The notes under the pieces: model-generated
The model's input: the letters and a program-made list of their open reading frames with translations, nothing else
What the model was told of the DNA's origin: nothing
Databases searched by the model: none
Origin: an uncultured bacterium
Lineage (GTDB): Bacteria > Patescibacteriota > Minisyncoccia > Phycocordibacterales > UBA918
Direction: 5' to 3'
Assembly: GCA_937867625.1 (NCBI GenBank)
Contig: CALMKR010000144.1
Location: 1 to 33,058 of the forward strand
Length of the DNA stretch: 33,058 nt
Shown: positions 7,827 through 30,558 of the stretch, one piece after another
How positions within the stretch are numbered: the stretch's first letter is position 1
Layout: each line of letters starts with the position of its first letter
Position numbers and translations under genes: made by a program

Positions 7827-8182
7827 GCTACTATTATAATCCTTTCGCCGTCCACAAGTTTCTCTATGTACTTAGGCTTGACTATTGCAGCCATAGCTTG
7901 CTCATGGACTGAGTGGGTGTTCTGCTCCTTCTTGTAAGCCTCTGTACGGGACTTTAGGGCTTGATCTGAGTAAGTTATCAGTCCGAGGTGATAAAGCTCT
8001 CTACGGCGACGTGAGATGGTCTCAGCATGGGTTGTGCGTGATATGTTCCACGACAGTCCTTTGCTATCGTCCCAGCCTTCGTATCGCCATACTGCTTCGA
8101 TAAGATCAGACTCGTTATTTTGTACTCCTGGGTTTAGTAGGATGACGTTGTATACAAGTTGCTGCTTCCTTGTGAGGTTCAC
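7823..8182 (-). CDS. Winged-helix DNA-binding protein (119 aa)
   Basis: Starts at a GTG that shares a base with the stop of the 59-aa gene (TAGTG). Residues about 1-75 have a winged-helix pattern: helix (TRKQQLVYNVILLNPGVQNN), a Ser/Asp turn, a second helix, then a recognition-like TISRRRRELYHLGLI segment. This ETISRRRREL..LGLI ending is common in small phage replication or regulatory proteins. Since it is second in a cassette whose promoter carries the shared spacer motif, it is a candidate for binding that motif (inference). It could instead serve replication. Confidence 0.7.
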   Translation of the reverse strand: MNLTRKQQLVYNVILLNPGVQNNESDLIEAVWRYEGWDDSKGLSWNISRTTHAETISRRRRELYHLGLITYSDQALKSRTEAYKKEQNTHSVHEQAMAAIVKPKYIEKLVDGERIIIVA

Positions 8183-8361
8183 TACTCGTCCTCTTGCCCG
8201 TGTACCCAGTCAATAATATCTGAGTAATCTAGCTGGCTTAGTATGTCGTCAGTGCTAAACTGACCAAATAGTAGAGCGGAGTCTACGTTTGTAAGGGTGA
8301 TGTTCATTGTGTCTGCTTCTGCTTCTGCGCTAAATGTGTCTGCGTATAATTGTATGTCCAT
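8182..8361 (-). CDS. Hypothetical 59-aa acidic protein, first gene of early cassette 3
   Basis: Starts at ATG 8361, right after the shared leader with ribosome site GAAAGG, about 22 bases from the predicted transcription start. The product is strongly acidic with no basic residue except one His (starts MDIQLYADTFSAEAEADTMN, ends HGQEDE), like phage DNA-mimic or inhibitor proteins (inference from charge). It is coupled to the winged-helix gene by TAGTG. Confidence 0.68.
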   Translation of the reverse strand: MDIQLYADTFSAEAEADTMNITLTNVDSALLFGQFSTDDILSQLDYSDIIDWVHGQEDE

Positions 8362-8419
8362 ATCTAACCTTTCATTGTTTGATAACCTTAGTGTACCACG
8401 ACTGCTTATGTTTTGTCAA
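8362..8419 (-). promoter_or_regulatory. Early promoter P3 with shared spacer motif and leader
   Basis: Minus-strand -35 TTGACA (8414-8419), 18-base spacer AAACATAAGCAGTCGTGG, extended -10 TGG-TACACT (-10 at 8390-8395). The spacer and both flanks are nearly identical at 11476-11505 and 29214-29243, and close at 13000-13028. Downstream, 8362-8385 holds the leader with CAATGAAAGGTTAGAT ending at the start codon, also seen at the other two early cassettes. Confidence 0.8.
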
Positions 8420-10663: not shown

Positions 10664-10972
10664 TTACTTGCATGCCCATTCGCCAGCATACCCGTTTGCA
10701 AAAGCCCATGCGGTAACTTCTGCTTGATGTACTGGGTTGTAAATGTCTCTTACGCCGTACGGTGATCTTCCGCCTATTCTGTTCCATGTCTCTGGTAGAT
10801 ATTGGAATAGTCCTGTTGGATTGCCGCCTCCTGCGTAATAGCCATAGTTTACAGCATTAGGGTTTAATGTGCTTTCACACCTCGCCACTCGTACAAGATA
10901 GTCCTCGCTGATACCATGCTTGCTTGCTGCGTCCCGTACTATCTGCTCTACATTTGTAGGCTGTGGCTGCAC
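10664..10972 (-). CDS. Lytic transglycosylase domain (distal part of a probable frameshift fusion)
   Basis: This encodes a small lysozyme-like/transglycosylase domain: VARCESTLNPNA with the catalytic Glu, GLFQYLPETWNRIGG, then a NPVHQAEVTAWAF helix and a final GEWACK. It resembles Rpf/SLT-type domains that cleave peptidoglycan. The nominal GTG start at 10972 has no ribosome site, and the frame stays open upstream to 11101, reading as a Pro/Glu/Thr linker that enters the 11056-11262 gene in the -1 frame. I infer a fusion product of about 199 residues with an N-terminal membrane anchor. See the 11017-11062 feature. Confidence 0.85.
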   Translation of the reverse strand: MQPQPTNVEQIVRDAASKHGISEDYLVRVARCESTLNPNAVNYGYYAGGGNPTGLFQYLPETWNRIGGRSPYGVRDIYNPVHQAEVTAWAFANGYAGEWACK

Positions 10973-11062: not shown

Positions 11063-11262
11063 TCGAGTTTTGACTGTAGATCTTGTACCTGAGTATATAC
11101 CTCAGACTTGATTGTAGCGTCAAAGTTCGATCGACTGAACCATCCGAAGATGAGTGCGGCGATGATCGTACTAATCCATACAATTGCAATTACTACTGTT
11201 GATACTTTGATTGTCTTAGGTGATGCCTGTGGGCGCTTACCTTCTACTGTTTCTTTAGCCAT
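11056..11262 (-). CDS. Membrane anchor segment of lytic transglycosylase (68 aa to its own stop)
   Basis: A short basic N-terminus (MAKETVEGKRPQASPKT) precedes one membrane helix (about residues 21-43, VVIAIVWISTIIAALIFGWF) and a helical heptad-like tail (ATIKSEVYTQVQDLQSKLEK). Alone it would be a small type-II membrane protein. Joined by -1 frameshift to the next frame it becomes a membrane-tethered peptidoglycan lyase with the enzyme outside the membrane. The start is one base after a 21-aa gene. Confidence 0.78.
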   Translation of the reverse strand: MAKETVEGKRPQASPKTIKVSTVVIAIVWISTIIAALIFGWFSRSNFDATIKSEVYTQVQDLQSKLEK

Positions 11263-11263
11263 A

Positions 11264-11329
11264 CTATTTGACCTCTACTTTTATAATAGTTTTTACCACT
11301 GGTTGTGTGTTGTCTGTAATCGTGAACAT
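11264..11329 (-). CDS. 21-aa peptide, first frame of early cassette 2
   Basis: ATG 11329 has AAGGAAAC upstream. The peptide (MFTITDNTQPVVKTIIKVEV plus K) ends in TAG, one base before the next ATG. It may be a real peptide or a translational leader for the membrane enzyme. Confidence 0.42.
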   Translation of the reverse strand: MFTITDNTQPVVKTIIKVEVK

Positions 11330-11505
11330 TTTGTTTCCTTTGTTTATATTTACTTTATAGATCGTAGCTAAGGGGTTGCTCTCGCTATTGTTTCTATTCG
11401 TTGCGTTCCGAATGTTAGTGCTTGCCTTAGCTTGTGATCTATTCGGTCTAATCTTTCATTGATTGGACTATCTGAAGTATAGCACGACTGCTTATGTTTT
11501 GTCAA
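11330..11505 (-). promoter_or_regulatory. Early promoter P2 with shared spacer motif and decayed leader
   Basis: Minus-strand -35 TTGACA (11500-11505), 18-base spacer AAACATAAGCAGTCGTGC, -10 TATACT (11476-11481) with TGC extension. The -35 contains the TGA stop of the HNH gene. The leader copy at 11447-11461 retains CAATGAAAGATTAGA, but no start codon follows it. The first usable ATG is at 11329, giving a 5' leader of about 140 bases with no gene in it. Confidence 0.78.
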
Positions 11506-12279: not shown

Positions 12280-12878
12280 TACGCCTCGTTCTCTAGCGCA
12301 TCCATCACAAGGTTAGCGTCGTCTATGCTGTCTATAGTCTCCTTGCTTAGTACGCCCTTTATAAATGCTTTCTTACTGTCTACGGTTAAGTAGTCGTGAC
12401 CAACGAGAGTATCGTTAATAACACCCTTAGCTCGCTTTAGTTCATCGGCTTCTGCTTCGTATTGCTCGGCTGCACGATCACGGATGACTGGTGTAGGCTT
12501 TGCCTTCACTTGCTCACCCGCTGCGTCTGCGTCTGCGTCTGTAATCAGTCCGAGCATAGAGCTAAGTGAGTAGCGACGTAGGTATGTGATAGCTGAACCG
12601 AGTACCTGAAAGTCGTTCATCCCTTTAAGCTGTACGCCCTGTGGTATGTCTGCAAACCCTTCGATAGATTCGCCCGACTCTGCGTGGAAGATGATTGTCT
12701 TTACTGTTGTACCGACAAGTGGCTGTGCGTAACCAAGCCCATGCTTTGCAAGTATCGGTTTAATGACATCGTTAATCTCACCGAGGTCTGCAAATGTATA
12801 GCTGTAGCCTTTAGCGTTCTTATAGATGTTTGGTACGTCTTGCTGAAAAGCTGCAAGTGCTTTGTATAGTTCTTTCAT
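12279..12878 (-). CDS. erf: ERF-family single-strand annealing protein
   Basis: A 199-residue recombination protein of the ERF superfamily, which anneals complementary single strands and helps circularise or repair phage DNA. Family hallmarks are the N-terminal LYKALAAFQQDVPNIYKNAK, then YSYTFADLGEINDVIKPILA, and the core MNDFQVLGSAITYLRRYSLS with SSMLGLITDADADA. The C-terminal third is variable and acidic, as usual. Its ATG overlaps the stop of the 30-aa gene (TAATG). Co-transcribed with an HNH nuclease. Confidence 0.95.
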   Translation of the reverse strand: MKELYKALAAFQQDVPNIYKNAKGYSYTFADLGEINDVIKPILAKHGLGYAQPLVGTTVKTIIFHAESGESIEGFADIPQGVQLKGMNDFQVLGSAITYLRRYSLSSMLGLITDADADAAGEQVKAKPTPVIRDRAAEQYEAEADELKRAKGVINDTLVGHDYLTVDSKKAFIKGVLSKETIDSIDDANLVMDALENEA

Positions 12879-12970
12879 TATCGCTCCTCGCTAGGGTAAA
12901 TGTGGTAATCGACACCGTTTTGTGTGCCTAATGGGTATGTACTATAAATGCTGGTTACTGTAATTTTCAT
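12878..12970 (-). CDS. 30-aa leader peptide of early cassette 1
   Basis: The first frame after promoter P1. ATG 12970 follows the shared leader with AAAGGA. The peptide starts MKITVTSIYSTYPLGTQNGV and its TAA overlaps the ERF ATG. An in-frame ATG within the leader (ATGAAAGGATTAGATATG) would add five residues. Probably translated and coupled to erf. Confidence 0.55.
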   Translation of the reverse strand: MKITVTSIYSTYPLGTQNGVDYHIYPSEER

Positions 12971-13028
12971 ATCTAATCCTTTCATTGATTGATGTATCTA
13001 TTATACATGACTGCTTACGTTTTGTCTA
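12971..13028 (-). promoter_or_regulatory. Early promoter P1 with shared spacer motif and leader
   Basis: Minus-strand -35 TAGACA (13023-13028), 17-base spacer AAACGTAAGCAGTCATG, consensus -10 TATAAT (13000-13005). The spacer differs by two substitutions and one missing base from P2/P3. The leader CAATGAAAGGATTAGAT with ribosome site AAAGGA ends at ATG 12970. Divergent from the plus-strand small-RNA promoter at 13040. Confidence 0.8.
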
Positions 13029-14118: not shown

Positions 14119-14204
14119 GTGATATAATAAGCTAGCAACACTGACTAAGCTACCTTCCTGGTAAACAGGTCAAAAAGCAACCCTAGCTAAATACTAGGGT
14201 TTTT
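14119..14204 (+). ncRNA. Small RNA unit A
   Basis: Extended -10 TGA-TATAAT (14123-14128) starts just after the 53-aa stop. The RNA of about 70 nt has a CCTG/CAGG hairpin, then AAAAAGC and the terminator AACCCTAG/CTAGGGTT (14179-14186 with 14194-14201) with TTTTT. It is the first of three consecutive units of the same design. Confidence 0.6.
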
Positions 14205-14271
14205 GCTATAATGAAGTAGTTCTATCGAGGGAAACAAAACAGCACCCACCTTGAAATATAGGTGGGTGTTT
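14205..14271 (+). ncRNA. Small RNA unit B
   Basis: TGC-TATAAT (14207-14212) overlaps the T run of unit A's terminator. The RNA is about 50 nt, with GAGGGAAACAAAACAGC and then the terminator CACCCACCT/AGGTGGGTG (9 bp, 14243-14251 with 14260-14268), followed by a short T run. Confidence 0.58.
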
Positions 14272-14345
14272 GCTATAGTGGAATAGTCCGTCAAGACACA
14301 TTTCGGTAAGACACAAAGCAACCCACGCCTAGTACGTGGGTTTTT
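14272..14345 (+). ncRNA. Small RNA unit C
   Basis: TGC-TATAGT (14274-14279) again follows immediately on the preceding terminator. The RNA is about 60 nt, with AAGACACATTTCGGTAAGAC, then AAAGC and the terminator AACCCACG/CGTGGGTT (14320-14327 with 14335-14342) with TTTTT. Confidence 0.6.
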
Positions 14346-14400
14346 GCTTTACTTGCCGCTCCTGTGTCTAAATATTACACACGAACATTGTGGGACGTTT

Positions 14401-17355: not shown

Positions 17356-17622
17356 TTATTGTTTCTTCGAGCTAATCCTGAATGTTTGCTTGAGCGCAAG
17401 CAGTGCCGATACAATAGCCGCGTTGATCGTTACTGCTACAACTCCGTCTAAAACTGAGAATATGGCAAGTAATGTCAGGACAAGTCCCGTAGCTATTGCC
17501 GTAATGTCAGTAGCAAAGTAAGCAATTGTTTTTACTTGGTCGCTAACTATTGGCGTGAAATCACTTGCACTCACGACGCTCTCTGTACCCTTTACAATGT
17601 TTTCCTGGTCTGCGGTTGTCAT
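17356..17622 (-). CDS. Nested holin-like protein from internal start (88 aa)
   Basis: Within the endolysin frame, AAAGGAG followed 8 bases later by ATG 17622 gives MTTADQENIVKGTESVVSAS, then two membrane helices (IAYFATDITAIATGLVLTLL and VAVTINAAIVSALLAL) and a basic end. Size, topology and position match class II-type holins, and the N-terminus resembles those of many actinophage holins. The internal ribosome site is among the strongest in the window, so independent translation is likely. Confidence 0.68.
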   Translation of the reverse strand: MTTADQENIVKGTESVVSASDFTPIVSDQVKTIAYFATDITAIATGLVLTLLAIFSVLDGVVAVTINAAIVSALLALKQTFRISSKKQ

Positions 17623-18471
17623 GTGGTTTTTCTCCTTTACTTCTTTCTCAATAGCGGCTAGTTCGGCTGCTTTTTTTTCAGCTGCCTCTTTAGCTAGTCG
17701 TTCTTCTTCTTTGATGCGGGCGATCTCGGCCTCAGCAGCAAGACGCTCTGCCTCTGCCTTCTTGTAAGCTTCCTCAGCGGCTTTAATCTCTTTAGCCTTC
17801 TCAGCATCGGCTAAAGCCTTTGCAGCGTCTTCCGCGGCTTTCTGTGCGGCTAAACGAGCAGCCTCGGCTTTACGGGCATCTAGTAATCGTTTTTCCTGTG
17901 AGTTAGCAAGCCCAGACTGCACTGCTTCAATCGGGTACTTCATCCAGTTAGCTATACCAGTTTCGTCTACGCCAGACGGGTCGCGTTCGAGTATGGCTTT
18001 GTACTCAGCAATTACCTGAGCGCGAGTGGCTGTTTTTACTGTGTCAATGTACGGCATGGGGTTAATACGTCCAGCGTAGCCATTTGAGAAGTTAGGACTG
18101 AGTGGTAGCATTTCAAAGTGTAGGTGTGGACCAGTTGCCGCGCCAGTTGCGCCAACGTAGCCAATGAGCTGCCCTTTTGCGACTTTTTGCCCCTTGTTTA
18201 CTACGGTGCTTGATAGGTGAGCGTAACCCCCGTATGAACCAATGTGGTTGATGAGTACGCATATACCAGCTGGTGTTCCCATCCAAGAATGGTTTTGTCC
18301 CCAGCCTTCAAATGTTACTGTACCTTCGTCTGCTGCATAAACTGGTGTGCCAGCACTTGCACCAAGGTCGATGCCGTTGTGTCCGATTTGACCAAACTGC
18401 CTGTAGTATTCGGGGCTTGCCCCAAACTCGCCTGTTATTCTTACGTTATCGAGTGGCCATCTAAATGACAT
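17356..18471 (-). CDS. M23 peptidase endolysin with C-terminal holin-like tail (371 aa)
   Basis: The N-terminal M23 zinc endopeptidase (residues about 1-135) has HNGID (H31, D35), YAHL (H85) and PHLHFE (H116, H118), the ligands that cleave peptidoglycan cross-bridges. Residues about 145-195 resemble DUF4214-type segments (AILERDPSGVDETGIANW). An Ala/Lys/Glu helix like TolA follows (about 200-280), then two membrane helices (about 314-362). This joins endolysin and membrane pore in one chain. AGGAG precedes ATG 18471. An internal start at 17622 can yield the tail alone. Confidence 0.9.
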   Translation of the reverse strand: MSFRWPLDNVRITGEFGASPEYYRQFGQIGHNGIDLGASAGTPVYAADEGTVTFEGWGQNHSWMGTPAGICVLINHIGSYGGYAHLSSTVVNKGQKVAKGQLIGYVGATGAATGPHLHFEMLPLSPNFSNGYAGRINPMPYIDTVKTATRAQVIAEYKAILERDPSGVDETGIANWMKYPIEAVQSGLANSQEKRLLDARKAEAARLAAQKAAEDAAKALADAEKAKEIKAAEEAYKKAEAERLAAEAEIARIKEEERLAKEAAEKKAAELAAIEKEVKEKNHMTTADQENIVKGTESVVSASDFTPIVSDQVKTIAYFATDITAIATGLVLTLLAIFSVLDGVVAVTINAAIVSALLALKQTFRISSKKQ

Positions 18472-27991: not shown

Positions 27992-29062
27992 CTAAGCTAA
28001 TGTTTGATCTTCGTTGCGTTTCTTGAGTAGTTGTTCGTATGGTGAGTACGTTGAACCTGTACCTTGGTTGGCGTTGATAGCTGCACGATCAACTGTGTAG
28101 TCTCGTAGGCTTGGTGCGTTTACCTGAACATCTTTAACTGAGTAAGGGGTTACTGAACCACGGAGTAGGTTGTCAATAGCAGTCTCACGGCTTGCAATAT
28201 CATTCGTGTACTGTTGTGAAGCGTTACGAGCTGCACCGTAACCACCGCCCATAATTGAAGCCTTTTCGCGAGCTGCGTTAGCAAGTGCCTCAGAGATTTG
28301 ATTTTGCTGTTCAAGTACACCGCTGCGGAGGCTTGTCTCGCGGCTTCGCTTCTGTTCGGCAAGATCAGCAAGGAGGTTTTCAAAGTCTGTTTTCGCACGG
28401 TTTTCTGAGGTTGCAAGGTCACGGTAGTTTGCGCCATAGTTAGTCAGCACATCGCCACGTTCACCTGATGCCTGGCGAGCGACTGCACCTGGGGCTGCAA
28501 ACTTAAATGCAGATGAGTCTGTACCGCCTGCCATACCGAGACGGCGACGGAGGCTGTCTGCTAGTGTGCGAGCGTTTGTATCTACCTTACCAATAGCGTT
28601 CTGTTTAGCTAGGTCTGTGTCTGAGCGTTTAGTTTGGAAGTCTTCGAGCGCACGTCCGCGAGCTTCGTTCTGGCGTGATGTTTCTTTGTTAAACGAGCTT
28701 TCAAGTGATGCGAGTCCCGTGTCTAGCCCCGATGTAGTACGTCCCATCTGACGGCTATAATTAGCAATGAGGTCGTCTATGTAGGCAACATCTTCTGCTG
28801 AGTAGCTTGAGCCTCCGCCGCCTGTGCTTGTACCTATATTACCACCACCTGTAGTAGTTAAGTTGTCACCAATATCTGTATTTGTTCGTAGGTATGGGAC
28901 TGTCTCTGCTGCTGCTGTATTACGTGCTGCTGCACGTGCTGGCTCATTGTCACCAACACCAGGTATAAGGTCAAGTGATGGCGATTCGACTCCTATACCA
29001 AAGCCAGCAGTTAATGGGTTGGACTTGGCTACGTTTACAATTAAATCCTGCAAAAATGACAT
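27992..29062 (-). CDS. Coiled-coil virion protein (356 aa), probable internal core partner
   Basis: A hydrophobic N-terminus (MSFLQDLIVNVAKSNPLTAG), a Thr/Gly linker (TTTGGGNIGTSTGGGG) and a long Ala/Arg/Glu/Gln helical region (about 95-300: ESSFNKETSRQNEARGRALE and onward). Such helical partners often sit before the giant ejected protein of short-tailed phages. GGAGAAA precedes the ATG, which follows its own promoter. Confidence 0.66.
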   Translation of the reverse strand: MSFLQDLIVNVAKSNPLTAGFGIGVESPSLDLIPGVGDNEPARAAARNTAAAETVPYLRTNTDIGDNLTTTGGGNIGTSTGGGGSSYSAEDVAYIDDLIANYSRQMGRTTSGLDTGLASLESSFNKETSRQNEARGRALEDFQTKRSDTDLAKQNAIGKVDTNARTLADSLRRRLGMAGGTDSSAFKFAAPGAVARQASGERGDVLTNYGANYRDLATSENRAKTDFENLLADLAEQKRSRETSLRSGVLEQQNQISEALANAAREKASIMGGGYGAARNASQQYTNDIASRETAIDNLLRGSVTPYSVKDVQVNAPSLRDYTVDRAAINANQGTGSTYSPYEQLLKKRNEDQTLA

Positions 29063-29128: not shown

Positions 29129-29161
29129 TATATAGGGTAGTCCTCACTTGACGTGTCAAGT
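29129..29161 (-). promoter_or_regulatory. Promoter with palindrome upstream of virion operon
   Basis: Minus-strand TTGACA (29154-29159) with a TATA-rich -10 (TATATA 29129-29134, 18-19 bases away). The -35 lies in a palindrome ACTTGAC-GT-GTCAAGT (29146-29161, 7-bp arms), a likely regulator site. It would drive the coiled-coil, giant and tail genes after the antisense insertion. Confidence 0.58.
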
Positions 29162-29213
29162 TGATTAGTTACAGTGTACCACAGTCTATACCGCATGTGA
29201 ATAGTAATAGTGC

Positions 29214-29243
29214 TTGACAAAACATAAGCAGTCGTGGTAGTGT
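29214..29243 (+). promoter_or_regulatory. Plus-strand promoter P4 with shared spacer motif
   Basis: TTGACA (29214-29219), spacer AAACATAAGCAGTCGTGG, then TAGTGT (29238-29243). The first 26 bases equal those of P3. The -10 is poor (3 of 6), and the A of ATG 29250 lies 7 bases downstream of it, so the mRNA should be leaderless. Unlike P1-P3 the shared leader is missing. Confidence 0.7.
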
Positions 29244-29249
29244 TCTAGT

Positions 29250-29798
29250 ATGAAGTTACTAATAAAAATCGTAATTGTTTTCACTCTTCTAGCAATACTA
29301 GGTGCAGGTGTTTTAACCTATCTCAGAGTTGGCAGTGAAGTAGCAAGTTTTAACTCGCGCACAGAGAGTGACGGGCAACTAATTCCGATACTTGAAGATG
29401 TTGCTATTGGTACTACAGATGAGCTGTCAATAATATACGATGATACACTAGAATACTCAGATGCAAAGGCCGTGTACTCGTCACTCACTATTTACGTAAA
29501 GCCTGGTATTGACCTTGAAAAAAGTAAGGTTGTGATTGCTCACGAATACCTCCACTACGTTTGGTACGAGATGATGACCGAAGGGCAAAGAAGTACTGTT
29601 ACAAGTAAGGTGATCGGTCTTTACGCTAAAGACATAGCCACGCAAACACGCACTATTCCGTACCAGAATACGAATACGCTGCTACCTACCGAGCTATTCA
29701 GCATCTACTGTACCGAGTCAAGTGATAAGTATATTGCCACCATCCTAGATGATTGTAGTAAGTATATTGATCGCTCCAAGCTAGTACTAGTGCGCTAG
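29250..29798 (+). CDS. Membrane-anchored HExxH metallopeptidase-like protein (182 aa)
   Basis: The only large plus-strand gene. An N-terminal signal/membrane helix (about residues 3-24, LLIKIVIVFTLLAILGAGVL) is followed by an extracytoplasmic domain with VVIAHEYLHYVW, a zinc HExxH at H98-E99-H102. A later LPTELFS (E148) could give the third ligand, as in gluzincins, and C155/C169 could pair. It sits alone in antisense inside the virion operon behind P4, like a moron. Possible roles are cell-wall or superinfection effects. The substrate is unknown, and so is the exact peptidase family. Confidence 0.74.
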   Translation: MKLLIKIVIVFTLLAILGAGVLTYLRVGSEVASFNSRTESDGQLIPILEDVAIGTTDELSIIYDDTLEYSDAKAVYSSLTIYVKPGIDLEKSKVVIAHEYLHYVWYEMMTEGQRSTVTSKVIGLYAKDIATQTRTIPYQNTNTLLPTELFSIYCTESSDKYIATILDDCSKYIDRSKLVLVR

Positions 29799-29799
29799 T

Positions 29800-30558
29800 T
29801 TACTTCAAACCTAAGAACTGTGTCTTGCTTAGTCTGTCTTTAAGTATCTTACCTGCGGTATTAGCAGTATTGTATGCAGATATATCTGTTGTCCATGGGT
29901 CGCCAGCGCTTCCTGCACCGTTTAGTTTCTCGCCCATTGTACCCGTGAGATCGTACTCGCTTGCAAGTGCGTTCCATACAGCGTCAACAATCTGCTGCAC
30001 AGCTGCTTCTGATTGGTTAACATAAATGTCGGCTGCCATCTGACCCAAAGCCTCTTGTTGCGCGTCTGAGATGATACCAGAACCAAGTAATTCAGCCGTC
30101 ATACCTGCAAGGGCTGATGCCGCTGCCGTGATGCTACCAGACCCTGCTAAATCTGCTGCTGCTTGTAATTGTCCAATAATAGAGGCTGTTAAGTTGCCCG
30201 ACCCTGCGAGTGCTGCAATCATCTCCACGGTAAGTCCCATAGCTGCATTCGATATGACCCCTGAACCACTAAGGTCAGCAAGGGCTGCCATACCAGCTAC
30301 CTGAGCTGCGTTACTTATTGTACCAGTCCCAGGGGAGTACATGCTCATACCACCCTCTTTAGGTGCAAGTACAAGTGAGTACGGAGGTCGTAACCCCTGA
30401 GCTGGTTGTGATGTTCTATCTGTTACGCTAACAATGTCATTATCGCCAACATAAAACGTATTCCAGCGAGCCAAGTCCAGCCCTCGGACTGGACTTAATT
30501 GACCACCTAGTGACCTAGATTGTCCTGCTCCGTCACGTCTATAGTTGGTAAGTAACAT
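29800..30558 (-). CDS. Ala/Gly-repeat virion protein (252 aa)
   Basis: Residues about 88-180 contain four diverged repeats of about 21-25 residues built on LxGSGxISxAA (ADLSGSGVISNAA, AALAGSGNLTASI, ADLAGSGSITAAA, AELLGSGIISDAQ). The C-terminal part has IVDAVWNALASEYDL and GTMGEKLNGAGSAGDPW, a pattern common in phage minor structural proteins. It ends one base from the convergent metallopeptidase gene. Probably a virion or head-tail component. Confidence 0.72.
   Translation of the reverse strand: MLLTNYRRDGAGQSRSLGGQLSPVRGLDLARWNTFYVGDNDIVSVTDRTSQPAQGLRPPYSLVLAPKEGGMSMYSPGTGTISNAAQVAGMAALADLSGSGVISNAAMGLTVEMIAALAGSGNLTASIIGQLQAAADLAGSGSITAAASALAGMTAELLGSGIISDAQQEALGQMAADIYVNQSEAAVQQIVDAVWNALASEYDLTGTMGEKLNGAGSAGDPWTTDISAYNTANTAGKILKDRLSKTQFLGLK

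Follow-up and report, generated by a model that had tools for sequence, protein, structure and literature searches.

PPEPs are small secreted peptidases that act on surface proteins; PPEP-1, -2 and -3 belong with the lethal-factor domain to MEROPS family M34. PPEP-1 cleaves collagen-binding adhesins on the surface of its own cell (PMC10654110). Phage morons, another system to which the present locus can be compared, are optional genes with their own promoter that lie between virion genes and give way to unrelated genes in related phages. Patescibacteria in culture live as epibionts on other cells (PMC10633639), and other phages of this phylum reportedly encode functions for cell-surface modification (PMC12911398). 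Knowledge of how these phages affect their hosts is scant, and in the literature on Patescibacteria phages we found no description of the peptidase family reported below.

Phage contig and slot gene

The window, the whole stretch of 33,058 nucleotides analysed here, is contig C144 of a heterogeneous bin of 309 contigs and 1.68 Mb, of which the genus mates have genomes of 0.6–1.1 Mb. It is a partial phage genome with a portal-like gene running open at the left end. The further genes, nearly all on the minus strand, include terminase subunits, an Erf-like annealing protein, an HNH endonuclease, an endolysin-like M23-type gene (17356–18471), a transglycosylase-like gene (10664–10972) and fibre-like genes. 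The phages of this group are podovirus-like and probably infect Patescibacteria; tetranucleotide comparison with the bin, the genus mates and the genomes containing the chromosomal family described below gave no decision on the host. No lysogeny gene was recognised in the window (a few kilobases of the phage are missing, and part of the small ORFs were scanned), and a benefit to a lysogen is therefore unsupported.

The initial annotation had described a lone plus-strand gene splitting the virion operon. The ORF scan of the window agreed: the peptidase gene (182 aa, ATG start, coordinates in the table including the stop codon) is the only plus-strand ORF longer than 100 aa, shadows of longer genes aside, and all other non-overlapping ORFs of at least 100 aa are on the minus strand. 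At 14171–14351, within a long gap that separates the early half of the window from the late half, recurring stem-loops with TTTTTGC behind them may be terminators or form a control region. The bin contains another phage contig (C170 of G000, L061), related but distinct, with about 67% identity in a 666-aa structural protein, which stops short of the cargo slot.

Table. Coordinates of the peptidase gene, its candidate functional residues, its neighbours and the associated control sites in the window
Feature	Position	Strand	Basis and remarks
Peptidase gene	29250..29798	+	ORF call; six full-length homologues; membrane-anchored HExxH protein
Predicted membrane anchor, Lys-containing N-terminus, about residues 1–27	29250..29330	+	Sequence; predicted helix 2–31; N-termini of homologues also hydrophobic
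HEYLH, residues 98–102, candidate zinc ligands and catalytic Glu	29541..29555	+	HEY-H invariant in six phage homologues
Tyr138, candidate transition-state residue upstream of distal Glu	29661..29663	+	Invariant in phage homologues; putative role
Glu148 in ELFSIYCTE, candidate third zinc ligand	29691..29693	+	Invariant; corresponds to the invariant Glu of NELHS
Cys154 and Cys169, candidate disulfide of the phage branch	29709..29756	+	Invariant in phage homologues including fragment L069
Putative peptidase promoter	29214..29243	+	TTGACA, 18 nt, TAGTGT; ends 6 nt before ATG; apparently leaderless
Putative early-cassette promoter, same 23-nt core	8390..8419	-	Exact TTGACAAAACATAAGCAGTCGTG
Putative early-cassette promoter, same 23-nt core	11476..11505	-	Exact TTGACAAAACATAAGCAGTCGTG
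Putative early-cassette promoter, diverged copy, upstream of Erf-like gene	12999..13028	-	3 mismatches
Promoter-like site towards gene 27992–29062, back to back with the peptidase promoter	29173..29201	-	Consensus scan; weak
Perfect palindrome ACTTGACGTGTCAAGT between the two genes and the divergent promoter-like sites	29146..29161	.	Candidate operator
Virion-region gene, one slot edge	27992..29062	-	Homologue next to the slot, on its downstream side, in L022 and 15 related contigs
Virion-region gene, other side	29800..30558	-	Its stop codon adjoins that of the peptidase gene

Content and control of the cargo slot

Single-sequence searches with the window protein in IMG/VR, INPHARED and 196 related genomes returned only chance matches; L002 and L006–L008 were rejected as such, and L004 was rejected as RsmA, with QLIPILED in common. 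Relatives were reached through the neighbouring gene for the 666-aa structural protein, which led to nine related phage contigs. On related contigs tblastn revealed peptidase homologues in L009, L015 and L016, and a profile search added L022 and L023. The alignment of the 27992–29062 family proved too diverged for use in scanning.

The position directly 5′ of the 27992–29062 homologue is variable among the related contigs. Sixteen contigs had a readable slot; they were found through the structural gene, or are the window itself, and were not picked for the peptidase. Five contain the peptidase (window, L009, L015, L016 and, as a fragment, L069), four a CAP protein (L017, L066, L067 and L070) and seven neither of them (L010–L014, L071 and L072). 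The CAP genes (L017:2336–2851, L066:1662–2159, L067:2926–3474 and L070:1203–1739) matched Pfam CAP (PF00188) with E values from 8.8e-14 to 3e-20, and their products have hydrophobic N-termini. L022 and L023 were found through the peptidase itself and apparently have the gene in the same slot, the neighbour in L023 being matched by position only.

The initial annotation had called the gene an antisense moron and proposed a search for the insertion in relatives. With the slot holding the peptidase, an unrelated CAP gene or neither, and with a promoter of its own in front of most copies, the gene does not behave as a core gene of this place. Its antisense direction is true of the window, L015 and L016, but in L009, L022, L023 and L069 it is in sense with the operon. 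Most copies retain a putative promoter of their own in either orientation, which is a hallmark of morons.

Exact copies of the 23-nt sequence TTGACAAAACATAAGCAGTCGTG lie at 29214 (+), 8419 (-) and 11505 (-), and a copy that differs by three mismatches lies at 13028 (-). It is the sole 23-mer that occurs at least three times in the window, and no further match was found in the 1.68 Mb bin. The minus-strand copies belong to early cassettes (8150–8419, 11250–11505 and 12866–13028), in which the common promoter is followed by a leader containing CAATGAAAGG(A)TTAGATATG; in two of these cassettes the leader opens with a tiny ORF, ATGAAAGGTTAG or ATGAAAGATTAG. We regard the shared promoter as putatively of early type from the genes it precedes, the Erf-like annealing protein and HNH. 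The peptidase gene was said to be controlled by the motif of the early cassettes without their leader, and the sequence bears this out, since the core is exact and the ATG follows 6 nt after TAGTGT, with the leader absent. This -10 is poorer than those at the early sites. The weak opposite site reads TTCACA-17-TACACT, with TG before the -10, and no second exact copy of the palindrome was found in the window.

Five of the six full-length peptidase genes and two of the four CAP genes have a sigma70-like site that ends 6–9 nt before the ATG. Out of 12 consensus positions, the peptidase promoters matched 9 (window), 10 (L015 and L016), 11 (L023) and 12 (L022), and the CAP promoters, both ending 6 nt before the ATG, matched 12 (L017) and 9 (L066); random 80-mers of the same composition gave at least 9 matches in 4.4% and at least 11 in 0.04%. 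The early-cassette spacer is used only by the window copy, and the spacers of the relatives differ. These arrangements suggest that slot genes with close promoters are transcribed as leaderless mRNA, and such short promoters could serve as an entry point to the study of gene control in this phage group. In L009 the promoter-like site lies farther off, about 90 nt upstream of the peptidase gene, and the leader folds strongly. In this sense-oriented leader (L009:2123–2244) the complementary pairs AACGGCAAA/TTTGCCGTT and GAAGCGACAGC/GCTGTCGCTTC are interleaved, as a possible pseudoknot or as alternative hairpins. The CAP genes of L067 and L070 have no close promoter and show Shine-Dalgarno-like sequences instead.

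The best reading of the gene, from its sequence context, is that of optional cargo, a moron, in an exchangeable slot for extracytoplasmic proteins. It is like phage morons in being optional, in having its own promoter, in its place between virion genes and in its replacement by unrelated genes in relatives. It differs from them in that orientation varies, no lysogeny gene was recognised in the window and no terminator was found (no terminator-like site was detected directly 3′ of 29798 on the plus strand, the nearest being at 30294), and in that the cargo here is limited to extracytoplasmic proteins, peptidase or CAP. Because the CAP proteins also have N-terminal anchors or signals, the common property of the slot proteins appears to be location outside the membrane.

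Homologues, fold and chromosomal relatives

The window protein starts with MKLLIK and continues with a hydrophobic helix, and by the positive-inside rule its C-terminus is predicted to lie outside the membrane. The signal anchor, the HEYLH and the later Glu and Cys pair named in the initial annotation were all recovered, as the hydrophobic N-terminus, residues 98–102, Glu148, and Cys154 with Cys169. As for its term "secreted", the predicted location is indeed extracytoplasmic, but the protein seems tethered rather than clearly released: the anchor lacks a clear cleavage site, which suggests retention on the cell that makes it.

In the six full-length phage homologues HEY-H, Tyr138, Glu148, Ser151, Cys154, Thr155, Glu156 and Cys169 are invariant, so that conservation of HExxH, on which the claim of a peptidase depended, is complete (6/6). 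The window protein shares 30–37% identity with the other full-length phage homologues. The seventh copy (L069), cut by the contig end, has the E...ACTE...C part. For the pair L015/L016 we obtained a dN of 0.076 against a dS of 0.267, which indicates that the protein sequence is under constraint (purifying selection).

Neither the peptidase nor its L022 homologue had a match among the INPHARED phages, and the same was true of the 666-aa structural protein. PHROGs, NCBIfam and PADLOC contained no family for the peptidase, the PDB sequence search gave chance matches only, and the BFVD search gave nothing below E 0.001. Pfam matches of the peptidases were limited to weak ones with DUF2268, DUF4179 and M78 (E up to 1). 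DUF2268 (PF10026), a predicted Zn-dependent protease, matched weakly and locally around HExxH in four of the six members, with a best E value of 0.00023; the likeness is limited to these surroundings, and the window protein reached 13.9 bits against a cut-off of 23.6, with the full domain unmatched.

Structure prediction, which had been proposed as a check of the zinc site, gave two zincin-like models. AlphaFold modelled the window protein from the six-sequence alignment with a pLDDT of 77, and the L022 ectodomain from a seven-sequence alignment with a pLDDT of 89. The nearest solved structures for both models were of M34 type (lethal-factor domain, PPEP-3, -2 and -1), followed by other zincins. 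The best Z scores, about 7.5–8.2, are middling. The second model gave Z 5.8–8.2 over 123–136 residues against M34, the better rows being tied and close to other zincins. Because the Foldseek E values are not significant and a Z of about 8 is middling, the zincin fold is taken as likely and membership in M34 as unproven. The phage peptidase and M34 are alike in the top-ranked folds and in HExxH with a distal Glu, but identity is about 10%, the Pfam family of M34 is unmatched and the distal motif is another one; moreover the phage protein is predicted to be membrane-anchored, whereas PPEPs are fully secreted.

A closer relationship was found within the phylum. With the six-member phage profile, homologues were detected in another 33 of 379 genomes of the phylum, none of them in the class of the bin; most of these genomes belong to one family and have 0.7–1.1 Mb. 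The chromosomal proteins are mostly about 320–365 aa long, with an N-terminal anchor, HE[MLAT]LH, NELHSI..TE and then a coiled-coil-like tail. Profile-profile comparison (hhalign) of the phage and chromosomal families gave E 2.1e-18 over 157 columns. Both have the N-terminal anchor, HExLH (the chromosomal family keeps H, E, L and H of HEYLH), a Tyr invariant in the chromosomal family at the place matching Tyr138, and a distal Glu of NELHS type at the same spacing (46–51 from H to E in phages and 43–51 in chromosomes). They differ in that the phage proteins, with 182–209 aa, are without the C-terminal coiled-coil-like extension and the upstream Cys pair, and have a C-terminal Cys pair of their own, the position of Cys154 being Gly, Ala or Pro in the chromosomal family.

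In the tree, from which the doubtful match L051 was excluded, the six phage proteins formed one side of a branch with support 100/99; a long-standing phage lineage is therefore more probable than recent capture. The chromosomal profile also matched in 26 genomes of the class of the bin; these matches were discounted, since they covered the C-terminal coiled-coil part. Neither the bin nor its class yielded the chromosomal family itself, the readable profile matches there covering the coiled coil and not the catalytic part. No Pfam or NCBIfam family scored above its cut-off for the chromosomal proteins, and no library contained a family above threshold for either branch. The slot proteins tie in with an uncharacterised chromosomal peptidase family that is widespread in parts of the phylum.

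Proposed role of the slot peptidase

We propose, with about even confidence, that the gene is a moron in an exchangeable slot encoding an early, tethered, outward-facing zincin peptidase, which cleaves surface proteins of the infected cell and so excludes further phages. The gene would be transcribed separately from the virion operon, by means of a sigma70-type promoter of its own, and probably as a leaderless mRNA. Since the control sequence of the window promoter is that of the early genes, the protein is expected early in infection and at the surface before assembly. It would insert into the membrane with the N-terminus inside and the catalytic domain outside, and the outward peptidase may then cleave surface proteins or peptide links of the infected cell. 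Altered receptors or an altered envelope would most likely exclude further phages; the best fit is superinfection exclusion or the removal of receptors. That some relatives have another extracytoplasmic protein instead argues that function at the cell surface matters and that the gene is dispensable in part of the group. The trimming of adhesins on the own cell by PPEP-1 is a mechanistic parallel for the phage peptidase, not a family assignment.

A broader version is more tentative: the slot, flexible in orientation, may serve early surface proteins made from leaderless mRNA, zincin or CAP, that remodel the surface of the epibiont, with exclusion of rivals or changed attachment to the host cell as the result. 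If true, one job would be done by two unrelated enzyme families, swapped for each other, on ultra-small epibiotic bacteria.

The predicted extracytoplasmic location would also suit a helper of lysis or envelope remodelling, a tethered peptidase that cuts peptide bridges or envelope proteins and aids release or DNA entry, and the gene stands among virion genes, in sense with them in three full-length relatives (L009, L022 and L023). We consider this unlikely, as the phage already has the endolysin-like and transglycosylase-like genes, 7 of the 16 relatives are without a slot gene while others have a CAP protein there, and the promoter resembles those of the early cassettes, not of late genes.

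Counter-defence or interference at the host surface is a rather doubtful explanation. The phage version, homologous to the membrane-anchored chromosomal family and missing its C-terminal coiled-coil part, could compete with the chromosomal HExLH...NELHS protein, cleave its partners or act on another membrane defence. Against it stand the failure to find that family in the bin or its class and the lack of a PADLOC match.

A virion-associated peptidase, carried in the particle and acting on the cell surface at entry, is improbable: fibre-like and internal virion genes adjoin and the gene is in sense in some relatives, but it has its own promoters, is antisense in three phages, has a membrane anchor and is missing from many relatives. 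Least probable is action on neighbours, in which a secreted peptidase damages competing cells or, in the case of an epibiont, targets the surface of the basibiont: the predicted extracytoplasmic catalytic domain, the epibiotic growth of cultivated Patescibacteria and the surface modification genes of other phages of the phylum count for it, but the anchor suggests retention and the producing cell is presumably soon lysed.

Under the proposed role in surface modification and phage exclusion, the slot, with tethered peptidase, CAP or nothing, narrows the candidates for surface modification to a definite set of proteins, each of which can be tested separately. A larger cargo region was observed in contig C46 of G662 (L062), from another class of Patescibacteria. 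This contig encodes proteins distantly homologous to the 666-aa and giant proteins, and its capsid-like and tail-like genes flank glycosyltransferase-like, methyltransferase-like and sugar-epimerase-like genes.
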